Below the pieces are notes generated by a model. It saw nothing but the letters and a program-made list of their open reading frames with translations, searched no databases and had not been told where the DNA came from. Below are positions 3,551-11,809 of a stretch of 60,411 nucleotides of DNA, one piece after another. Made by a program: the position numbers and the translations under genes. Origin of the DNA: a virus. Each line of letters starts with the position of its first letter. The stretch's first letter is position 1. The stretch spans positions 1 to 60,411 of the IMG/VR virus record IMGVR_UViG_3300036781_000814, one strand, 5' to 3'.

Positions 3551-4087
3551 ATGGGAATGAATGAGATCCGCGCAATGAACGCAAAGCGCACGGGATATCT
3601 CCCGCCGGCAGACACATATGTTGAGGTGAAACCGTCCGGCCCCAAAGAAAAGAAGCCTCTAAAGCGGAGCAGGCCTACGAAGAGGGATAACGCAAAGGAG
3701 ATCGAGGCTTATTTTGCGACTGTTGAGGCTGAGCATGCTGGCGATTGCCAGTGCTGGGAGTGCGGATCTTTAGTACCCGATAAATTCATTCGGTTCGCAA
3801 CCGCGCATATTTTCCCGAAGTCAGACTTCGAATCCGTCGCCGCTCACCCTTCCAACTATATAATCCTGGGCGCCCACTGCTGTCACGACAAGAGTCACCG
3901 TGTTGACCTTTTCTGCAAGATGGGCATTTGGAAGGAGGCCGTCGAGCGCTTCCTCATCTTCGAATATCTGCTGACGGCGGAAGAAAAGGCCAAGAAATAC
4001 TACACGCTCTTCAGAGAGGCTGCAATGGCATCCTTCCCTGCGTTATTCCCCGAATCGATAACCCATCAACTTTTAACCAATGCGTAA
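3551..4087 (+). CDS. HNH-like endonuclease / NinG-like recombination protein
   Basis: 178 residues. Basic N-terminus (KKPLKRSRPTKR) followed by a zinc-knuckle arrangement: CxCxxC (CQCWECG), a central AHIFPKS with its histidine, an Asn in HPSNYIILGAHCCHDKSH, and a final HDxxH. This Cys-His-Asn-His order is what HNH nucleases and phage NinG/Rap-like junction enzymes show. Role would be DNA cleavage in recombination or packaging. The stop overlaps the start of the next gene by eight bases. Confidence 0.6.
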   Translation: MGMNEIRAMNAKRTGYLPPADTYVEVKPSGPKEKKPLKRSRPTKRDNAKEIEAYFATVEAEHAGDCQCWECGSLVPDKFIRFATAHIFPKSDFESVAAHPSNYIILGAHCCHDKSHRVDLFCKMGIWKEAVERFLIFEYLLTAEEKAKKYYTLFREAAMASFPALFPESITHQLLTNA

Positions 4088-4328
4088 AGAAATGCTCAAG
4101 ACCGGCGGTAAGACCGTCGCCACCATCTACCATGTCAACAAGCCAGTCCATGTGGCGCCGACCATTGTCGACGTGAAGACGGTCGGCGGCACCAGGTTCT
4201 ATGTGGACAGCGCGGGCAAAAGCCATGTGGCAGATATGTATGACGCGGTCTTCGGCAAGCGTGACGCAAAGGCCATCAATCCTAAACCGAAGTTCGCCTA
4301 CCAGCGCACTTTTAAACCCAACAAATAG
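4080..4328 (+). CDS. Hypothetical protein (82 aa)
   Basis: 82 residues, basic, mostly beta in appearance, with no recognised motif; ends in KPKFAYQRTFKPNK. The first ATG overlaps the previous gene by eight bases; a second ATG at 4092 would remove the overlap and is also possible. Confidence 0.5.
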   Translation: MRKEMLKTGGKTVATIYHVNKPVHVAPTIVDVKTVGGTRFYVDSAGKSHVADMYDAVFGKRDAKAINPKPKFAYQRTFKPNK

Positions 4329-4707: not shown

Positions 4708-5175
4708 ATGGCAACAATTACCATTGACGACAGTAAGATCAGGCGCCTTTACAAGACCGCCGGCCAGGAATTCAAGGAGCTTCTGGAGGCCGAATTCGGT
4801 CCGAAATTTTTCTCCGGTGACATCACCGGACGCATATTAAGCTTCGAAGACGCCTGCGCTGAGGTTGGCAAGGATCCGCATGACCGCTTCTTTTCGGAAG
4901 CTCGTCCTCACGAAAACGCTATTCGGAAGATAGAGGTATGGGCGCTTGCTCTCAATGAAGGGAACGTGCTAAGCTATACAGATCCTTCCACTGAAAAGTG
5001 GCGCGTATGGGTAGTCTATGACGAGTCTATCTCCGGCTTCCGGTTGTGCGCTGTCGACTACGATGGCACGGGTACGTACTCGGGCCTCGGCTCCCGGACC
5101 GCCTTTGCTTCTGAGAAGCTGGCTCGGCATTTTGCCAAACATGCCATGCCGCTGATAAACGAGTCTTTGGCCTGA
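4708..5175 (+). CDS. DGR target protein 1 (155 aa, carries variable repeat VR1)
   Basis: Small soluble protein without signal peptide. Residues 45-50 (SFEDAC) begin a block shared with the next gene; residues 109-130 are encoded by the variable repeat and start GFR and end SGLGSR; then a conserved tail with the pattern AF-SE---RHFAKH. The layout (SFEDAC, long helical middle, Trp-rich stretch, GF, variable core, GSR-CF-SE) matches a family of small proteins I recall as common in Bacteroidota prophages. Unlike most DGR targets the variable segment is internal, 26 residues from the C-terminus, and no tail-fibre or adhesin domain is visible. Diversification by the downstream reverse transcriptase is inferred from adenine-specific differences to the template repeat. 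Ligand or function unknown. Confidence 0.85.
   Translation: MATITIDDSKIRRLYKTAGQEFKELLEAEFGPKFFSGDITGRILSFEDACAEVGKDPHDRFFSEARPHENAIRKIEVWALALNEGNVLSYTDPSTEKWRVWVVYDESISGFRLCAVDYDGTGTYSGLGSRTAFASEKLARHFAKHAMPLINESLA
5032..5097 (+). repeat. DGR variable repeat 1 (VR1)
   Basis: 66 bases aligned without gaps to the template repeat at 5629-5694. Of 17 template adenines, 11 are replaced here (nine by G, one by C, one by T); none of the 49 non-adenine positions differs. The reading frame puts template AAC/AAT codons at the most changed residues. The 3' end ctcgggcctc-gctccc is GC-rich and fits an IMH-like anchor. Confidence 0.93.
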
Positions 5176-5207
5176 TCTCATTTTTTAACCATTTACAACT
5201 CAATAAC

Positions 5208-5588
5208 ATGCAAATCGAAAGTTTAGAGCAGGCCTGCGAAATGCGCGGATGGGACGCTCAAACCGTGATCCCCGATATGTCCTGCTATCCGGAGAAGCAT
5301 CGCGCCGCCCTCATGGCTGTTGCCGAGATGATCCTGATCACGGACGCCGCCAGGGAAAAAGATCCTGATTGGAATAACCGCGACGAAGAGAAGCATACCG
5401 GCTGGATGGATATGGAGGTAGACAGAAACAACCCCACCGGCTTCCGGTTGTTCGCTGTCGTCTACGATTACGCGAGTGCGCACTCGGGCCTCGGCTCCCG
5501 GCTTTGCTTCGAAAGCGAGGGCGATGTGAGATACCATTTCGAGAAACATCTGGATAAGATGCGCGCCATGATGGTCATCGAGAAATAA
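5208..5588 (+). CDS. DGR target protein 2 (126 aa, carries variable repeat VR2)
   Basis: Paralogue of the preceding gene, lacking its first ~40 residues. It starts SLEQAC (compare SFEDAC), keeps the helical middle and a DWNN/W-W region, then the variable segment at residues 77-98 starting GFR and ending SGLGSR, and a conserved tail LCFESE---RYHFEKH. Outside the variable region the two proteins are only moderately alike, so this is an old duplication and not a fresh copy. Cytoplasmic by sequence. Stop at 5586-5588, followed 40 bases later by the template repeat, so target and template are probably on one transcript. Confidence 0.85.
   Translation: MQIESLEQACEMRGWDAQTVIPDMSCYPEKHRAALMAVAEMILITDAAREKDPDWNNRDEEKHTGWMDMEVDRNNPTGFRLFAVVYDYASAHSGLGSRLCFESEGDVRYHFEKHLDKMRAMMVIEK
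5437..5501 (+). repeat. DGR variable repeat 2 (VR2)
   Basis: 65 bases aligned without gaps to template 5630-5694. Twelve of 17 template adenines are replaced (seven G, three T, two C) and no other position differs. VR1 and VR2 differ from each other at eight positions, every one a template adenine. Same reading frame as VR1. Confidence 0.93.
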
Positions 5589-5811
5589 GATTTTGGGTTG
5601 TGCGGCGCCAGAGCGGCGAGGTTTTCGGTCCGGCTTCCAGTTGTACGATGTCAACTACGATAACACGAATACGAACTCGGGCCTCAGCTCCCAGCAATTG
5701 CAATTTAATTTTTCCGCGCAGCAGACCCTGCCAACAGGGCAAAAAAAGACTCATTAATAAGAGGCGTCAGTAGGGTGAATGCCCGGCCGCGACTCTTTGA
5801 AAGCAAAGGGA
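5589..5811 (+). ncRNA. Non-coding TR-containing region (putative DGR template RNA)
   Basis: 223 bases without a credible gene between target 2 and the reverse transcriptase. Upstream of the TR is a GC-rich stretch; downstream is an A/T-rich spacer of about 117 bases with a short hairpin ccctg (5726-5730) / caggg (5735-5739) followed by seven A residues. In the characterised BPP-1 DGR, the spacer between TR and RT gene is part of the structured RNA that primes cDNA synthesis; a similar role here is inferred. RNA ends are unknown. Confidence 0.5.
5629..5694 (+). repeat. DGR template repeat (TR)
   Basis: Non-coding copy between target gene 2 and the reverse transcriptase. Read in the target frame it would code for S-G-F-Q-L-Y-D-V-N-Y-D-N and then T-N-T-N-S-G-L-S-S-Q. 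It holds 17 adenines in 13 codons (CAG, TAC, GAT, AAC, AAT, ACG, AGC types); no substitution of these adenines can produce a stop codon. Adenines 5657, 5660 and 5675 are unchanged in both variable repeats; 5639, 5648, 5653, 5669, 5686 and 5693 carry the same new base in both. Confidence 0.95.
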
Positions 5812-6942
5812 ATGAAAAGAATAAATGGACTTTACGATCGGATCATATCGCTGGAGAACCTCCGGGCGGCTGACACTATTGCCCGAAAAGGTAAGCGTCG
5901 GCAGTACGGGATATACAGGCATGATAGGAACCGGGAATCCAATATTCTGGATCTTCACTCTTCCCTGCAGTCCGAAACTTACCGGACATCACAGTATTCC
6001 ACCTTTAAGGTATTCGAGCCAAAGGAGCGGATAGTATTTCGGCTGCCTTACTATCCCGATCGGATCGTCCACCATGCCATAATGAATGTCCTGGAGCCGG
6101 TGTTCGTTGCATCGTTTACGACTGACACCTATTCCTGCATCAAGGGGCGAGGTATCCATGGCTGTCTTAGGGCAGTCAAAAGAGCGCTTCGGGATGCGCC
6201 GGGGACCAGGTACTGCCTCAAGTTGGATATCACCAAATTTTACCCATCCGTCAATCACAGGATACTAAAGAATCTTCTTCGCCGGAAACTCAAAGACGAG
6301 CGGCTCCTGGCGTTGCTGGACGAGATCATCGATAGTGCTGACGGGCTGCCGATCGGAAACTACCTGAGTCAATATTTCGCCAACTTCTACCTGACCGGTT
6401 TTGACCATTGGCTGAAGGAGACAAAGCGCGTTCGCTATTATTTCCGATACGCTGACGACTTGGTCTTCCTGGCGCCTGACAAGGGATCGCTACACCAGCT
6501 GCTGGCGGACATCCGGGAATATCTCTGGCTAACGCTTAAGCTCCAGGTCAAAGGCAATTACCAGGTTTTCCCTATCGGCAAGAAGAGGGGCAGAGGCCTT
6601 GACTTTATTGGCTATGTATTTTACTCACATCTCCATATCCTACTGAGAAAATCCACTAAAAAGAGGTTCGCACGGTTAGTAGCAAAAAGACCCAATCTCG
6701 CATCGATAGCGTCCTACTACGGATGGGCCTGTCACTGCAATTCAAAAAACCTGCTTAAAACCTTATTGGATGAAAAGTTTTTCAGATTTCGGCATCGAAT
6801 CAAGCCAGGAGGCATTCACAGGAGACAAAATAAAGATCGAGCGCCTATTGAATCTGCCTATCCTGGTGCTCAAATACAAAATCGGGCAGTCAAATTTCAA
6901 AGGCAGATTGCTCACGCTGCAGATAAAGAAGGGAGAAAGTGA
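5812..6942 (+). CDS. DGR-type reverse transcriptase
   Basis: Error-prone reverse transcriptase that would copy the TR into mutagenised cDNA. Counting from ATG 5812 (aaaggga just upstream; the ATG at 5779 adds 11 unlikely residues): RT motifs are LKLDI with Asp139, the DGR signature IGNYLSQ at 181-187 (Ser-Gln where group II intron RTs have Ser-Pro), and catalytic YADD at 213-216. The thumb-like end runs to SYYGWACHCNSKNLLKTLL near residue 318. No maturase, HNH or primase domain is fused. The last ~57 residues are Arg/Gln-rich and overlap the better-looking frame starting at 6770; known DGR RTs are usually shorter, so this tail may come from a small frameshift. A TGA in the third frame overlaps the 6770 ATG (ATGA), as expected of an ancestral stop. 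Confidence 0.95.
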   Translation: MKRINGLYDRIISLENLRAADTIARKGKRRQYGIYRHDRNRESNILDLHSSLQSETYRTSQYSTFKVFEPKERIVFRLPYYPDRIVHHAIMNVLEPVFVASFTTDTYSCIKGRGIHGCLRAVKRALRDAPGTRYCLKLDITKFYPSVNHRILKNLLRRKLKDERLLALLDEIIDSADGLPIGNYLSQYFANFYLTGFDHWLKETKRVRYYFRYADDLVFLAPDKGSLHQLLADIREYLWLTLKLQVKGNYQVFPIGKKRGRGLDFIGYVFYSHLHILLRKSTKKRFARLVAKRPNLASIASYYGWACHCNSKNLLKTLLDEKFFRFRHRIKPGGIHRRQNKDRAPIESAYPGAQIQNRAVKFQRQIAHAADKEGRK

Positions 6943-7060
6943 GCATGTGGTCTTTACTGGTTCCGCTACGCTCATAGAAATGATTGAAAAGGTTCCTGCT
7001 GATGGATTCCCATTCCAGGCAACCATTATAAAGAAGGACGAACGATTCATTTTTACTTAG
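6770..7060 (+). CDS. Putative DGR accessory protein (96 aa)
   Basis: 96-residue alpha/beta protein starting MKSFSDFGIESSQEAFTGDK and ending DERFIFT, with a central VVFTGSATLIEMIEKVPADGFPFQATI. I recall related small proteins downstream of RT genes in Bacteroidota, but cannot name a domain. It lacks the helical-bundle look of the Avd accessory protein of classical DGRs. It overlaps the final part of the RT reading frame by 173 bases; its codon usage and composition favour this frame as the real one. Likely co-translated with the RT. Confidence 0.7.
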   Translation: MKSFSDFGIESSQEAFTGDKIKIERLLNLPILVLKYKIGQSNFKGRLLTLQIKKGESEHVVFTGSATLIEMIEKVPADGFPFQATIIKKDERFIFT

Positions 7061-7084: not shown

Positions 7085-7513
7085 ATGCAAAGAAGGTCAG
7101 ACATAGTGAAAGAGTTACTGGAAGGCGCTTACATAATGTATGCCGGCAGCCGGCCGACCTTATACACCGGCAACCAGCAGCCATCTCTGCGACTGACGAA
7201 TGGCACCTATAAGTACTTGCGGAACGTGCTGAAGACCAGCAAAAAGAACAAACGACAGTATATCAGCATCCGGGCGATCCAGCAGCTACGCCGGCATCAC
7301 GGAATAAAGAAAGCCTATAAAAAGTTTCACAATGAAAAAGTTAATCATCAACTCCAAGGATCTGAAAGCCGCCCTGCAGAAGCTCAGCCAGGTAATCGTC
7401 AAAAAACCTGTCATCCCTGCTCTATCCAATATTTATTTGCGGGTCCGGGGCAACGAAGTGGAGTTGATCACGTCCGATCTGGAACTGACCATCAGTTATG
7501 TCTGCAAATGTGA
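7085..7513 (+). CDS. Hypothetical protein, 3' part overlaps dnaN
   Basis: About 80 good residues from ATG 7085 (basic, ends ...RAIQQLRRHHGIKKAYKKFHNEK) and then a stretch that only mirrors the dnaN frame. The overlap with dnaN is 182 bases, unusually long. Either the stop was lost by mutation or the true gene ends close to 7332 after a small indel. Basic character suggests nucleic-acid binding; no family recognised. Confidence 0.45.
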   Translation: MQRRSDIVKELLEGAYIMYAGSRPTLYTGNQQPSLRLTNGTYKYLRNVLKTSKKNKRQYISIRAIQQLRRHHGIKKAYKKFHNEKVNHQLQGSESRPAEAQPGNRQKTCHPCSIQYLFAGPGQRSGVDHVRSGTDHQLCLQM

Positions 7514-8411
7514 GTGCGTCGAGGAGTTCGAGCTGCTGCTGCCTTTCGAATTCGTTTCGAAGCTGGTTGGCCTTCTTCCCCAGCAGCCAATCACCATCTC
7601 TCTCCTTCCTAAGAATAAGGGAGAGATCATAGGCGAGGGAGACATTCACAAGCTGGGTACACTGGATAAGGTGGAAGACTTTCCGAAGATCCCCAACATC
7701 CCCTCCAGGAAAGCCGTTGACCTGGATGCGAGTTTCATGCGGTGGTTAGAACGGGCGATGGAATCGGTAAGTAAGGATAAGCTGCGTCCGGCAATGACAA
7801 AGGCGCTGCTGGAGATCAGCCCGGATGACATAACGATCGTCAGCACCGACGCCCACAGCCTCTTCCGCCATAAGTTTCCCGTTCAGTCGCTGATGACGGA
7901 GCAGATACTGATCTCTCCTAAGATCGCCCTATCCTTGCAAGGGTTTGAAACCACAAAGCTGTCCTGGAATGCGACACATCTTGCGATGAAAGCGGATAAC
8001 GTGACCATTATCGCCACCCGGCATAATGATAAGTTCCCCGATTACCGCGTAGTGATCCCCAACCAGCCGGCCAACCTCGATATCAGCCGCGCGGAACTGA
8101 TCAGCGGGATAAACCGCGTCAGCCTTGTCAGTTCCCAGCAGATTAAATTCCAATTCACCGGCGACGCCCTGGACAAACTGACCTTATATGCGGAGAATGA
8201 GGAAAGGAATTCGGCGGTAGAGGTATCCGTCAGCTATTCCGGCAATACTCCATCGATCGCATTCGCGCCGGAGCTTTTCAAAACCCTGCTTCATCAGATA
8301 CCTTTTTCGGAAATCCGGCTTCATATCGACTCTGCTGTCCGCGGGGTCCTCATCACAGCAGAAGAGGATCCTGATTATCTGGGAATGATTATGCCACTCT
8401 TACTTAACTAA
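7332..8411 (+). CDS. dnaN: DNA polymerase III beta subunit (sliding clamp), phage copy
   Basis: 359 residues, full length for a bacterial beta clamp. It begins MKKLIINSKDLKAALQKLSQ, the normal domain I start, shows the domain pattern SNIYLRVRGNEVELITSDLE, a second-domain region with ISTDAHSLFRH-like turn (VSTDAHSLFRHKF), and the C-terminal signature ..EEDPDYLGMIMPLLLN in the place of the usual MPMRL. It forms a ring that tethers a DNA polymerase. A phage copy next to a PRTRC cassette and DGR implies use of a host polymerase with a phage clamp. Directly followed by the PRTRC E gene with no gap. Confidence 0.85.
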   Translation: MKKLIINSKDLKAALQKLSQVIVKKPVIPALSNIYLRVRGNEVELITSDLELTISYVCKCECVEEFELLLPFEFVSKLVGLLPQQPITISLLPKNKGEIIGEGDIHKLGTLDKVEDFPKIPNIPSRKAVDLDASFMRWLERAMESVSKDKLRPAMTKALLEISPDDITIVSTDAHSLFRHKFPVQSLMTEQILISPKIALSLQGFETTKLSWNATHLAMKADNVTIIATRHNDKFPDYRVVIPNQPANLDISRAELISGINRVSLVSSQQIKFQFTGDALDKLTLYAENEERNSAVEVSVSYSGNTPSIAFAPELFKTLLHQIPFSEIRLHIDSAVRGVLITAEEDPDYLGMIMPLLLN

Positions 8412-8918
8412 ATGAATATGAACTTTTTTACTGACCTGGCTGCCTACGGGCAGGGAATTGACATCAGTCTGCGGATCAAGGGCAAAAATGGGAAGCTGAC
8501 GATCCAGATCGAGCCCCAGCCCGCACATAACTCGACACTTAAGGCCTTGCGTGTTACGGGTAGCCCCGAGGATCTGGACCGGGAGTTTTCCGAAGCGGCC
8601 AAGGCTGCCAGCGTTGTTCCGGAAGGAGTGCAGAATAGCACGGCAGATATGGAAGCTGATGTTGCTTCGGCGGCTCATAAGCCAAAGGAAGAAGGCCGAT
8701 CCTTCCCTACAAAGAAGAATACCGGCAAGAAAAGCAACAAGGCTAAAAAGACGGTGCCGCCAAAGAAGGGAACTCCTCCGGTCTCAAAGACCTCTCCAAC
8801 ACCGGTGGATATGTTCAGTCCTGGCACCCCGGGGGCGGCGGTAGCTGACGAGCCCAACACCGACGACCAGGATGAAGTGGAGGAAGGCGGAGAGACCGAT
8901 GAAACCGAAACCGAATAA
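8412..8918 (+). CDS. PRTRC system protein E
   Basis: 168 residues. N-terminal ~70 residues (MNMNFFTDLAAYGQGIDISLR...GKLTIQIEPQP) match my memory of PRTRC protein E; the remainder is a disordered Lys/Pro-rich then acidic tail (KKSNKAKKTVPPKKGTPP, ending ETDETETE). It begins at the base after the dnaN stop. Biochemical role of PRTRC E is not established. Identification rests on the N-terminal pattern plus the typical neighbours C, F, B and ThiF. Confidence 0.75.
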   Translation: MNMNFFTDLAAYGQGIDISLRIKGKNGKLTIQIEPQPAHNSTLKALRVTGSPEDLDREFSEAAKAASVVPEGVQNSTADMEADVASAAHKPKEEGRSFPTKKNTGKKSNKAKKTVPPKKGTPPVSKTSPTPVDMFSPGTPGAAVADEPNTDDQDEVEEGGETDETETE

Positions 8919-8939
8919 TCACTTTAATATTTTCCTTAT

Positions 8940-9161
8940 ATGCCACTCGAAGTAACCAATCTCAAAAGAGCCTTTTCCTTTAAGAAGGACGGCAAACGCA
9001 TCGATCTAAGCGATCCCAACCCTGAGTTCTCTGTCCAGGAGGTGCTTCAGTTCTATTCCGGACAGCACTCCGAACTGACCACCTGTACCATCGATGGTCC
9101 TAAGATCGAAGGAGATAAGGCCATCTACGAATTTAAGACGACAGTAGGGACAAAGGGATAA
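8940..9161 (+). CDS. PRTRC system protein C
   Basis: 73 residues with the clear PRTRC C pattern: LKRAFSFKKDGKRIDLSDP, then FSVQEVLQFYSGQHSELTTC, and the ending YEFKTTVGTKG. The small all-in-one domain resembles E2/ubiquitin-like partner proteins encoded beside ThiF-type enzymes only by context; its function is unproven. Two bases upstream of the next small gene. Confidence 0.85.
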   Translation: MPLEVTNLKRAFSFKKDGKRIDLSDPNPEFSVQEVLQFYSGQHSELTTCTIDGPKIEGDKAIYEFKTTVGTKG

Positions 9162-9163
9162 TC

Positions 9164-9337
9164 ATGAAACTCAAAGATTTCAAAAAGTCATGCCGAAAAA
9201 AGCTACCAGCAAAAGATCTTCACAGCAAGTTGGGCGCCGCGCTAAAAGGCGAGCTGCGGGACCACCATCTTCACGCAAGAGACCAGTACATGCTCCGCAG
9301 ACTGCCAGCATCGTCGGAGATTCCCTGGCTGCCATGA
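9164..9337 (+). CDS. Small basic protein inside the PRTRC cassette (57 aa)
   Basis: 57-codon frame starting two bases after the PRTRC C stop and ending in TGA that overlaps the ATG of PRTRC F at 9334 (ATGA). The product is basic and helical: MKLKDFKKSCRKKLPAKDLH at the start, WLP at the end. This frame has a better residue mix than the alternative, in which PRTRC F would begin at 9190 with a Lys/Arg/Ser-rich leader. Coupling at both ends supports it. No homologue recognised. Confidence 0.55.
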   Translation: MKLKDFKKSCRKKLPAKDLHSKLGAALKGELRDHHLHARDQYMLRRLPASSEIPWLP

Positions 9338-10329
9338 GGTTCAAACCGAAATCCGGAACGGAAGTGTTTTTTGCCGTAGGCGGCTTGGATGGCGATGATG
9401 CAGAGCGGATCTACGGAGATATCTATAAAGGATACACCCGGTTATACGAGCTTCTCAGGAAAGAAAGGATGGCCTTCGATCCGTTGAAAAAAGGCTTGTC
9501 TTACCCGGTGGCGCTCGGCTGGCTTCTTCGGCAGATCAAAACATTAGTGCCGGCTGAGTTTGATTTCAATATTGACTCGGAAGAAAACGGGTCAGGTTGC
9601 CACCTCACCATTTTCAAGGAATGCTATTGGCCCAATCAATTTCTTGCCCTGGAATGCGGACCCGCATTGCTTAAACTTGGCAAAGTAAACCGTCCCCTGC
9701 AAGCTCTCTTTATGAGTTTTATCCGGACTTTCGGCGGCGCGACATCCATTGACATTTGGACAGCAGGTATGATGGGTAACAGCCTGGAGATGCTCGACGA
9801 TAATATGTTGCAAATGGAAGGCGACCGCGATCCGCAAGACCTCGAGGAGATGGGAATCGAAATTAAGGCGCACCGATCGGGAATTCCATACAAACTTTCA
9901 AAGCAGATCAGAAAAGCTCCCTTAATGAGCCCTGATGAGCTGCAGCGCCGGGCTAAGCGGTATAAGGCCGGCAACCCCATTGCGAATCTTATTCACCAAG
10001 GCGCTGAATTACTCAGAGAGGGATGCAGCCTGATGGATTACACGTACTGGTCCAGTCCTGAAGACATGTACCACAATGCCTGCCTCCTCTTACTCGATCA
10101 GGCATCGTTCGTATGGGAATTCAACACCCATCTGATGAATGAGCATGAAGAATACCTCGACTGTCAGGCGCAAGAAGGTGTTCAGCAGCCTATCGTATCT
10201 GCCACAATCGATCGGGCGACGAAAAGCCTTGATATGAAAGCGCTTTCCAAAAAGGCAGACTGGCCGACGCGTTTGGTGGACTTCTTCAGCCGGGCGTATG
10301 AACTAACCGAAAAATTCAAACAGGCATGA
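9334..10329 (+). CDS. PRTRC system protein F
   Basis: 331 residues from ATG 9334 (an in-frame ATG at 9190 gives 379 residues but its leader looks like the shadow of the 57-codon gene). Key blocks: PLKKGLSYPVALGWLLRQIK, the DFNIDSEENGSGCHLTIFKE segment and a C-terminal helical region. Matches PRTRC F by memory and by order in the cassette. Its stop overlaps the PRTRC B start (ATGA). Function unknown. Confidence 0.75.
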   Translation: MRFKPKSGTEVFFAVGGLDGDDAERIYGDIYKGYTRLYELLRKERMAFDPLKKGLSYPVALGWLLRQIKTLVPAEFDFNIDSEENGSGCHLTIFKECYWPNQFLALECGPALLKLGKVNRPLQALFMSFIRTFGGATSIDIWTAGMMGNSLEMLDDNMLQMEGDRDPQDLEEMGIEIKAHRSGIPYKLSKQIRKAPLMSPDELQRRAKRYKAGNPIANLIHQGAELLREGCSLMDYTYWSSPEDMYHNACLLLLDQASFVWEFNTHLMNEHEEYLDCQAQEGVQQPIVSATIDRATKSLDMKALSKKADWPTRLVDFFSRAYELTEKFKQA

Positions 10330-11051
10330 ACGAGCTTACCGACAACCTCATTAAAGAGTATCATCCCAGACTGGCGATCATCGCACACACCTCTGCCCTG
10401 AATGACTGGCGGGATGTATACCTCGAAAGCCACCCTATAAACGAGGCTGGGCAGATACTGGAAGGAAGACCCCTGAAGCAAGAGACAATCCAGGAAATAG
10501 TAGATGTGTTTTTTGATGAACGGCAGAACGCGGTCGCGGTCAGCGGTATGATCCCCGCCAATGTGCTCCAATTCGAGGTTTTACCCGGCGGCAGATACTC
10601 TCTGATGTGGTACCGCCCGGCAGAACGCCGCCGGATCTATTTTTCAGAGTCTCTTAATATTCCATCCGGTGAGGCCTGGATGCCTCCGATGATCTATCAT
10701 ACGAAGGACAGCCGGGGACTGGCGATGTATGCATTGGCAAACGACGACCGCCCTGCCGAATCAACCCGGTTATTTAGAGCGCCATTCCATAACATCTATG
10801 ACGATGGTGACGTCTGCCTGGGAAATGCGCAGGTAAAGAAGCCGTCTCAGAAGACCTACGCATCCCTTATGAAATATTGGGAAGATCTCTTTTGGCTGAG
10901 CGAGTTTACTCACCTCAATGGCACCGCCAATCCTACAAAAAGTAACCTCGCGTTGCTTTGGCCAAAGCTGGTGAAAAATAAGAAGCTGACCTGGTCGCAG
11001 TTGGATGAGCTCAAGCCCTATAAAAAACAAACCGTAAAAGACTTAATATGA
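10326..11051 (+). CDS. PRTRC system protein B
   Basis: 241 residues. Central block ISGMIPANVLQFEVLPGGRY-like (SGMIPANVLQFE) followed by LMWYRPAERRRIYFSESLNI and PPMIYHTKDSRGLAMYALA are the PRTRC B hallmarks; the later PFHNIYDDGDVCLGNA carries the single conserved Cys. PRTRC B has an overall prokaryotic E2-like look, which would fit pairing with the ThiF/E1-like enzyme encoded next, but this is inference. Overlaps both neighbours by four bases. Confidence 0.8.
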   Translation: MNELTDNLIKEYHPRLAIIAHTSALNDWRDVYLESHPINEAGQILEGRPLKQETIQEIVDVFFDERQNAVAVSGMIPANVLQFEVLPGGRYSLMWYRPAERRRIYFSESLNIPSGEAWMPPMIYHTKDSRGLAMYALANDDRPAESTRLFRAPFHNIYDDGDVCLGNAQVKKPSQKTYASLMKYWEDLFWLSEFTHLNGTANPTKSNLALLWPKLVKNKKLTWSQLDELKPYKKQTVKDLI

Positions 11052-11809
11052 TCGTTCACTATACCGAGAAATATCTGCTGAACCCCGTCCATAGGATCAC
11101 CGTCAACCTGGTGGGCCTCGGCGGCACCGGATCACAGATGCTGACCTGCCTGGCCCGGCTCAACGAAACCCTCAAGGCCTTGGGTCATCCGGGACTTCAC
11201 CTGAAGGCCTGGGATCCGGATACGGTAACCTCCGCGAACCTGGGCCGCCAACTCTTTTCTCCGGCAGATCTTAACCAGTCGAAGGCCATAGTGCTGACTT
11301 CCCGTATAAACAGGTTCATGGGCCTGGATTGGGAGGCTCATCCCCGGGAGTACAACGGAGGCGAACCCGCCAATATCCTGATCACCTGCATCGATACTGC
11401 CGCCGGGCGAGTTGCGCTTTCGGAACATGTCGTTGAACGCAAAACTGTAGAGGTAATAAAAAGACCCTATTACTGGCTGGATCTTGGCAACCTGCAGAAG
11501 ACCGGTCAGGCCATACTCGGAACTGTCAATAACATATCGCAGCCGAAAAGCGATGAACACACCACCCGGGCGACATTGCCCAATGTGGTCAAATTCTTCC
11601 CGCGGCTCAGGAAAATTAAAGAGGAGCAGCAGGGCCCCAGCTGCTCCCTGGCAGAAGCCATCAGAAAGCAGGATCTGTTCATCAATAGTGCGCTGGCGCA
11701 ATTCGGTGCCACTCTTCTTTGGAAGTTGTTCCGGGAGGGAATGATTCGGCACCATGGCTTCTATCTGAACCTTGATACTCTGCAGACCAATCCTATACCT
11801 ATTAAGTAA
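11048..11809 (+). CDS. PRTRC system ThiF-family (E1-like) adenylating protein
   Basis: 253 residues with a Rossmann-type nucleotide site: GLGGTG at residues 23-28, acidic DPD at 56-58 and N64-LGRQ for ribose and phosphate contact. ThiF/MoeB/E1 enzymes adenylate the C-terminus of a ubiquitin-like protein. A Cys (Cys201 region, GPSCSL) could be the transthiolation residue but is not in a canonical position. No ubiquitin-like partner ending in Gly-Gly is visible nearby. Final gene of the cassette; PRTRC A, D and ParB are absent. Confidence 0.85.
   Translation: MIVHYTEKYLLNPVHRITVNLVGLGGTGSQMLTCLARLNETLKALGHPGLHLKAWDPDTVTSANLGRQLFSPADLNQSKAIVLTSRINRFMGLDWEAHPREYNGGEPANILITCIDTAAGRVALSEHVVERKTVEVIKRPYYWLDLGNLQKTGQAILGTVNNISQPKSDEHTTRATLPNVVKFFPRLRKIKEEQQGPSCSLAEAIRKQDLFINSALAQFGATLLWKLFREGMIRHHGFYLNLDTLQTNPIPIK

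Follow-up and report, generated by a model that had tools for sequence, protein, structure and literature searches.

A variant diversity-generating retroelement with two small target genes and a predicted OB-fold protein in a tailed temperate phage

The window, by which we mean the whole 60,411-nucleotide stretch of DNA analysed here, is an IMG/VR virus contig. It encodes a terminase, a portal protein, a prohead protease, an HK97-type capsid protein and a lysozyme together with an integrase-like gene, so that an earlier note on this DNA was right to place it in a phage genome. Between positions 4708 and 7060 lie two short target genes that each enclose a variable repeat (VR), followed by a template repeat (TR), a structured spacer, a reverse transcriptase (RT) gene and a small further reading frame (Table 1). 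Directly 3' of this cassette is a gene for DNA polymerase III beta, the sliding clamp (7332-8411), and beyond it a PRTRC/E1-E2-like operon (8412-11809) with a PRTRC_E-like gene (a weak match, below cut-off), Prok-E2_D and an E1-like ThiF gene.

Table 1. Features of the retroelement cassette, in window coordinates.
Feature	Position	Strand	Remarks
Target gene 1, 155 aa, distal of the pair	4708..5175	+	ORF; phrog_11581 (function unknown), E 1.4e-10; no Pfam match
Variable repeat 1 (VR1)	5033..5097	+	11/65 positions unlike TR, every one a TR adenine
Target gene 2, 126 aa, TR-proximal	5208..5588	+	ORF; phrog_11581, E 0.0027; target profile, E 1e-35
Variable repeat 2 (VR2)	5437..5501	+	12/65 positions unlike TR, every one a TR adenine
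Template repeat (TR)	5630..5694	+	17 adenines; IMH* at 3' end
Structured spacer RNA	5699..5814	+	R1 model, 75.9 bits (R1 was built from sequences that include the window)
DGR reverse transcriptase, 376 aa	5812..6942	+	phrog_1423, E 1e-119; RVT_1; BPP-1 bRT nearest solved structure
Predicted OB-fold protein, 96 aa, candidate accessory factor	6770..7060	+	start overlaps RT end; AF2 pLDDT 91.8

The TR and the two VRs align without gaps over 65 nucleotides. The earlier note had set the TR at 5629-5694, VR1 at 5032-5097 and VR2 at 5437-5501; its ungapped alignment holds, but position 5629 stands opposite T in VR1 and A in VR2 and falls outside the shared repeat. Our recount agrees with its claim that every difference in either VR falls on one of the template adenines: the 48 non-adenine positions of the TR have 0 mismatches in VR1 and 0 in VR2, and the hypergeometric probability of such confinement is 1.4e-8 for VR1 and 1.5e-9 for VR2. 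When the 60 kb were scanned with the adenines masked (at most 3 mismatches), the TR, VR1 and VR2 were the only matches, with no further repeat copy and 0 matches in shuffled sequence. Both VRs sit inside coding genes, and all 17 adenines occupy codon positions 1 or 2 in both target ORFs, the residue-changing positions expected in a diversity-generating retroelement (DGR).

A minority of these differences recur at fixed places. The TR ends in CTCAGCTCCCAG where VR1 and VR2 both have CTCGGCTCCCGG, and both VRs have G at the TR adenines 5639, 5686 and 5693. The same fixed replacements, A to G and also A to T, are found at the flanks of the repeat in almost every relative: the VR ends in approximately GTCGGCTCnCGCCTTTGC where the TR has GTCAGCTCnCACCTATGC, and the 5' flank carries similar fixed A-to-G differences. 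Across the family, the VR end (IMH) is unlike the TR end (IMH*), with fixed differences at three TR adenines. On the sequence comparison, the differences at 5639, 5686 and 5693 look like IMH/IMH* and 5'-boundary marks and are best read in this way, not as products of mutagenesis. Since such terminal differences are fixed in nearly all relatives, three per repeat are not to be counted as mutations; of the 11 and 12 differences previously taken as marks of mutagenesis, 8 in VR1 and 9 in VR2 are informative, all within a 46-nucleotide core with 14 adenines (P 1.2e-5 and 1.8e-6, respectively). A stem-loop just 3' of the VR gave no signal in 109 VRs, the mean best stem being 6.57 compared with 6.34 ± 0.56 in synonymous shuffles.

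The reading frame after the TR carries the motifs LPIGNYLSQ and YADD, which bears out the DGR signature IGxxxSQ and YADD assigned to it previously. Among solved structures the encoded RT is closest to the BPP-1 DGR RT (8ub7_A, E 1.4e-42, the identity of this chain being confirmed by searches with BPP-1 bRT and Avd), and the best group II intron RT follows at 7.7e-19. Given adenine-only differences between TR and VRs, an RT closest to BPP-1 bRT and one TR serving two VRs, the reading of this locus as a DGR is upheld. The stretch from 4708 to 7060 is a real DGR of variant type in a tailed temperate phage; we describe it as a variant because it has the defining core of a DGR but neither a BPP-1-type Avd nor a downstream stem-loop was found.

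Relatives were gathered by way of the RT, because viral contigs searched with single target proteins yielded none and alignments A1 and A2 were too divergent to support pattern scans. An RT scan gave 80 viral loci (numbered with the prefix L below), to which we applied a purpose-written search for adenine-tolerant repeats allowing at most 1 non-A mismatch. In nearly all of these loci the TR lies shortly before the RT and the VRs lie upstream. VR and TR differ at 1,352 of 1,974 TR-adenine sites in the relatives and at 13 of 5,472 other sites, a disparity that is partly built in by the mismatch limit of the search. Members of this lineage as a rule have two targets: at least two VRs are present in 49 of the 51 lineage loci that have at least 700 nucleotides upstream of the TR (two in 42, three in 7), and the other 2 have one. 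The earlier note's description of two adjacent targets as less common is correct for DGRs overall, about 13% of which have two (PMC10743442), but does not hold within the lineage.

In the relatives, one VR-containing ORF is about 150 residues long and the TR-proximal one about 125. A single ORF spans two VRs in L015, L040 and L057, which hints that the two target proteins work together. Distal and proximal targets separate in a tree computed without the VR (8 changes, compared with 27 in shuffles), albeit with weak support for the deep forks, and from this split the target duplication is probably old.

The second target of the window has no counterpart of the N-terminal extension of the first. 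No Pfam family is common to the 86 aligned targets. The AF2 model of target 1 (86 rows) is mostly helical, with a pLDDT of 86 overall and a low-confidence VR stretch at 55-70. Foldseek and VIA found no PDB match for the fold, an absence that does not show the fold to be new, and the BFVD matches are uncharacterised phage proteins only, some of them from crAss-like phages. With a consensus-like target as query, there were no plasmid homologues, and the phage homologues comprise 14 records, all unannotated or hypothetical bar one overlapping 'tail protein' label. The targets, on whose nature the earlier note offers no view, cannot be recognised as tail proteins or C-lectins.

It is rather unlikely, in our judgement, that the targets are C-type lectins in strongly reduced form and the element thus an ordinary DGR with short targets. 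Their sole link to C-lectin targets is a profile match between VR segments, covering 29 columns of VR and IMH and including VGSRLCF (probability 91). The survey of 30,000 DGRs by Roux et al., which used JGI metagenomes, found annotated VR regions to fall systematically into C-lectin folds, and its authors expect VR domains that go unrecognised to be variants of the C-lectin (PMC8144416); the present targets may already belong to one of its 24 target clusters. Against this, the predicted fold is mostly helical and has no PDB match, albeit with low confidence in the VR itself, and the shared motif covers IMH DNA that is perhaps held constant by homing itself.

A second alternative keeps the same DGR but places the small targets in the virion, where, as minor tail or decoration proteins, they would bind receptors on the host surface in the manner of BPP-1. 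The same survey gives tail proteins as most phage DGR targets (PMC8144416), C-lectin tail targets have a VR segment similar to that of the small targets, and related RTs serve tail-type C-lectin targets (L053, L087, L106 and L110). The location of the targets argues against such a role, as they lie far from the tail genes and beside the sliding clamp, the PRTRC operon and replication genes, and the neighbours of the DGR in relatives likewise tally as DNA-metabolism families (primases, methyltransferases, RecT, SbcC-like proteins and replication initiators). Their small size (108-195 residues) without a Pfam domain also speaks against virion proteins, although small ones may be encoded away from the tail module. 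We consider this alternative unlikely.

A hydrophobic 19-mer scoring above 1.6 is present in only 2 of the 86 targets and a signal-like N-terminus in 0 of the 86. Together with the replication and DNA-modification neighbours, this makes an intracellular role more likely, and the targets are probably cytoplasmic, non-structural proteins of the early region. Their hypervariable loop would then probably bind a varying partner in the cell, for which host defence proteins or competing phages are the leading candidates. We put forward tentatively the fuller proposal that phages of a Bacteroidota lineage diversify pairs, and in places as many as four, of small non-lectin proteins that work inside the cell in conflicts with rival phages or the host, with an OB-fold protein replacing Avd.

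The spacer between TR and RT contains three covarying helices in which 95.1% of cells are paired. Covariation is 0.581, compared with 0.208 in shuffled alignments and at most 0.162 when the pairing partners are slid. The R1 covariance model matches lineage loci outside its training set (for example L085, E 6e-15) and, more weakly, C-lectin DGRs of related RTs. The Rfam family RT-17 (RF03020) aligns to the window spacer over the full model length at 25.3 bits (E 0.063) and to the spacers of L025 and L032 at 37.2 and 35.0 bits, all below its gathering threshold of 40.4. The TR-RT spacer of hankyphage corresponds to Rfam RT-3 and that of L064 to RT-14; these assignments suggest that the 'RT-n' families of Rfam represent DGR spacer RNAs. 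In BPP-1 a structured spacer recruits bRT-Avd (PMC12875486), and by analogy the spacer RNA here is likely to recruit the RT.

The product of the last reading frame is modelled by AF2 with a five-strand topology and a helix between strands 3 and 4. Its best structural matches are OB proteins, among them SSB, PriB, RPA and RuvBL-type proteins, at Z 4.5-6.6, values that can also arise from a common arrangement; the match to the SSB 3pgz has Z 6.0 and 2.4 Å over 67 residues. Of the 57 loci with downstream sequence, 55 have a gene for this protein after the RT. In hankyphage p00 (L106:3023-4327), for which DGR activity has been measured (PMC12135933), and in BT-TP2 (L111:2014-3309) an unannotated OB domain is fused at the RT C-terminus, in frame in the case of p00. 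Since DGRs with C-lectin targets likewise have the protein after their RT (L087, L090, L091, L093 and L110), this protein belongs with the machinery and not with the targets.

Avd (PF22296) was found in 0 of 18 small-target phage records (the window and 17 related ones) by a model that finds BPP-1 Avd, and bAvd had no match in hankyphage p00. Avd is present in 13 of 40 records, none of which has both Avd and the OB protein (Fisher P 7e-7, with the caveat that related records are not independent). Most likely the OB-fold protein does the work of Avd, for example by holding RNA or single-stranded cDNA on the RT. Avd, HRDC and MSL are named DGR accessories (PMC10053308), and the literature we searched contains no OB-fold accessory. 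An OB-fold protein that excludes Avd would be a second type of accessory factor.

Evidence that elements of this lineage are active comes from pairs of close relatives. L031 and L052 differ at 22 positions in 8,152 nucleotides; 17 of these lie in the repeats and all 17 are at TR adenines (9 in VR1, 8 in VR2), compared with 0 in the TR and 5 in 7,930 positions elsewhere. L003 and L004 differ in VR1 at 9 positions, 9 of them adenine sites, and not at all in VR2, so the repeats change independently. The DGR reading thus also finds support in near-identical relatives, whose repeats change at template adenines only. These pairs, in which the VRs vary over a fixed TR, are relatives of the window's phage (60-64% RT identity) and not that phage itself; as no close relative of it was found, activity of the window's copy rests on its relatives. 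That the window instead holds a decayed or inactive element with old changes still recorded in its VRs is improbable. The RT, TR, spacer RNA and OB frames are intact, neither VR differs from the TR at any non-adenine position, and the close relatives are active. An origin of the RT in a defence RT (DRT) or retron, with the repeats as coincidental duplications, merits virtually no weight: PADLOC matched generic RT, DRT and E1-E2 models only (best DRT model 90 bits), but phrog_1423 reaches 402 bits, the nearest solved structure is a DGR RT and the adenine pattern, at P about 1e-8 per repeat, rules this identity out.

The locus as a whole is very probably best explained as a Bacteroidota-type temperate-phage DGR with two paralogous targets, most likely with an OB-fold protein in place of Avd and probably with targets that are cytoplasmic. 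In this mechanism the TR transcript, together with the folded spacer, would be copied by the RT, which would misincorporate opposite template adenines. The cDNA would replace the core of VR1 and VR2 and stop before the fixed IMH end, so that the two small paralogous proteins are diversified from one template but independently of each other. The OB-fold protein would take the part of Avd, perhaps keeping RNA or single-stranded cDNA on the RT, and the diversified loop of the cytoplasmic targets would bind a varying intracellular partner.

The element shares with the BPP-1 DGR (Mtd, Avd, bRT) the order target-TR-RT, adenine-specific differences, distinct IMH and IMH*, a homologous RT and a structured TR-RT spacer (PMC12875486 for BPP-1). 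However, BPP-1 has one C-lectin tail fibre, Avd, a hairpin after the VR and repeats of 134 nucleotides, whereas the window has two small targets, an OB protein after the RT, no Avd, no conserved hairpin and repeats of 65 nucleotides. Hankyphage p00 (PMC6199706, PMC12135933) is alike in its phrog_1423-like RT, OB domain, lack of a bAvd match and structured spacer, but its OB domain is fused to the RT and a single large C-lectin tail-fibre target carries 117-nucleotide repeats. One TR serving two targets is also seen in the nd4/nd12 tentaclins (PMC10743442) and the Bacuni phages (PMC8143477), from gut Bacteroidota-type or other phages; there the targets are C-lectins of differing architecture and not both adjacent small paralogues, and Bacuni has Avd. 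The Quimbyviridae DGR (PMC8008677) likewise has a phage target away from structural genes that is suggested to be non-structural, but there a C-lectin domain is present and the setting is a defence island, whereas the targets here are small and predicted to be non-C-lectin.

The phage DGRs known so far act mostly on tail lectins, and conserved small targets of the early region would extend what DGRs are for. If correct, this would be a phage-encoded repertoire acting inside the cell, not a tail-fibre switch.

Three further loci depart from the usual arrangement. The TR of L027 (2730-2815) has only 11 adenines, compared with 17-27 in relatives, and its VR has a duplicated GSR motif; this is possibly a degenerating element. 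In L122 (G370), whose genome lacks the OB protein, an orphan target homologue at 3830-4195 is joined to a longer C-terminal part. In Dyadobacter sp. Leaf189 (L119, L120) a single TR supplies four VRs, all in small paralogues of the targets; three of them lie within about 13 kb, and the fourth is about 48 kb from the TR-side VR in a second stretch, an example of DGR action at a distance.
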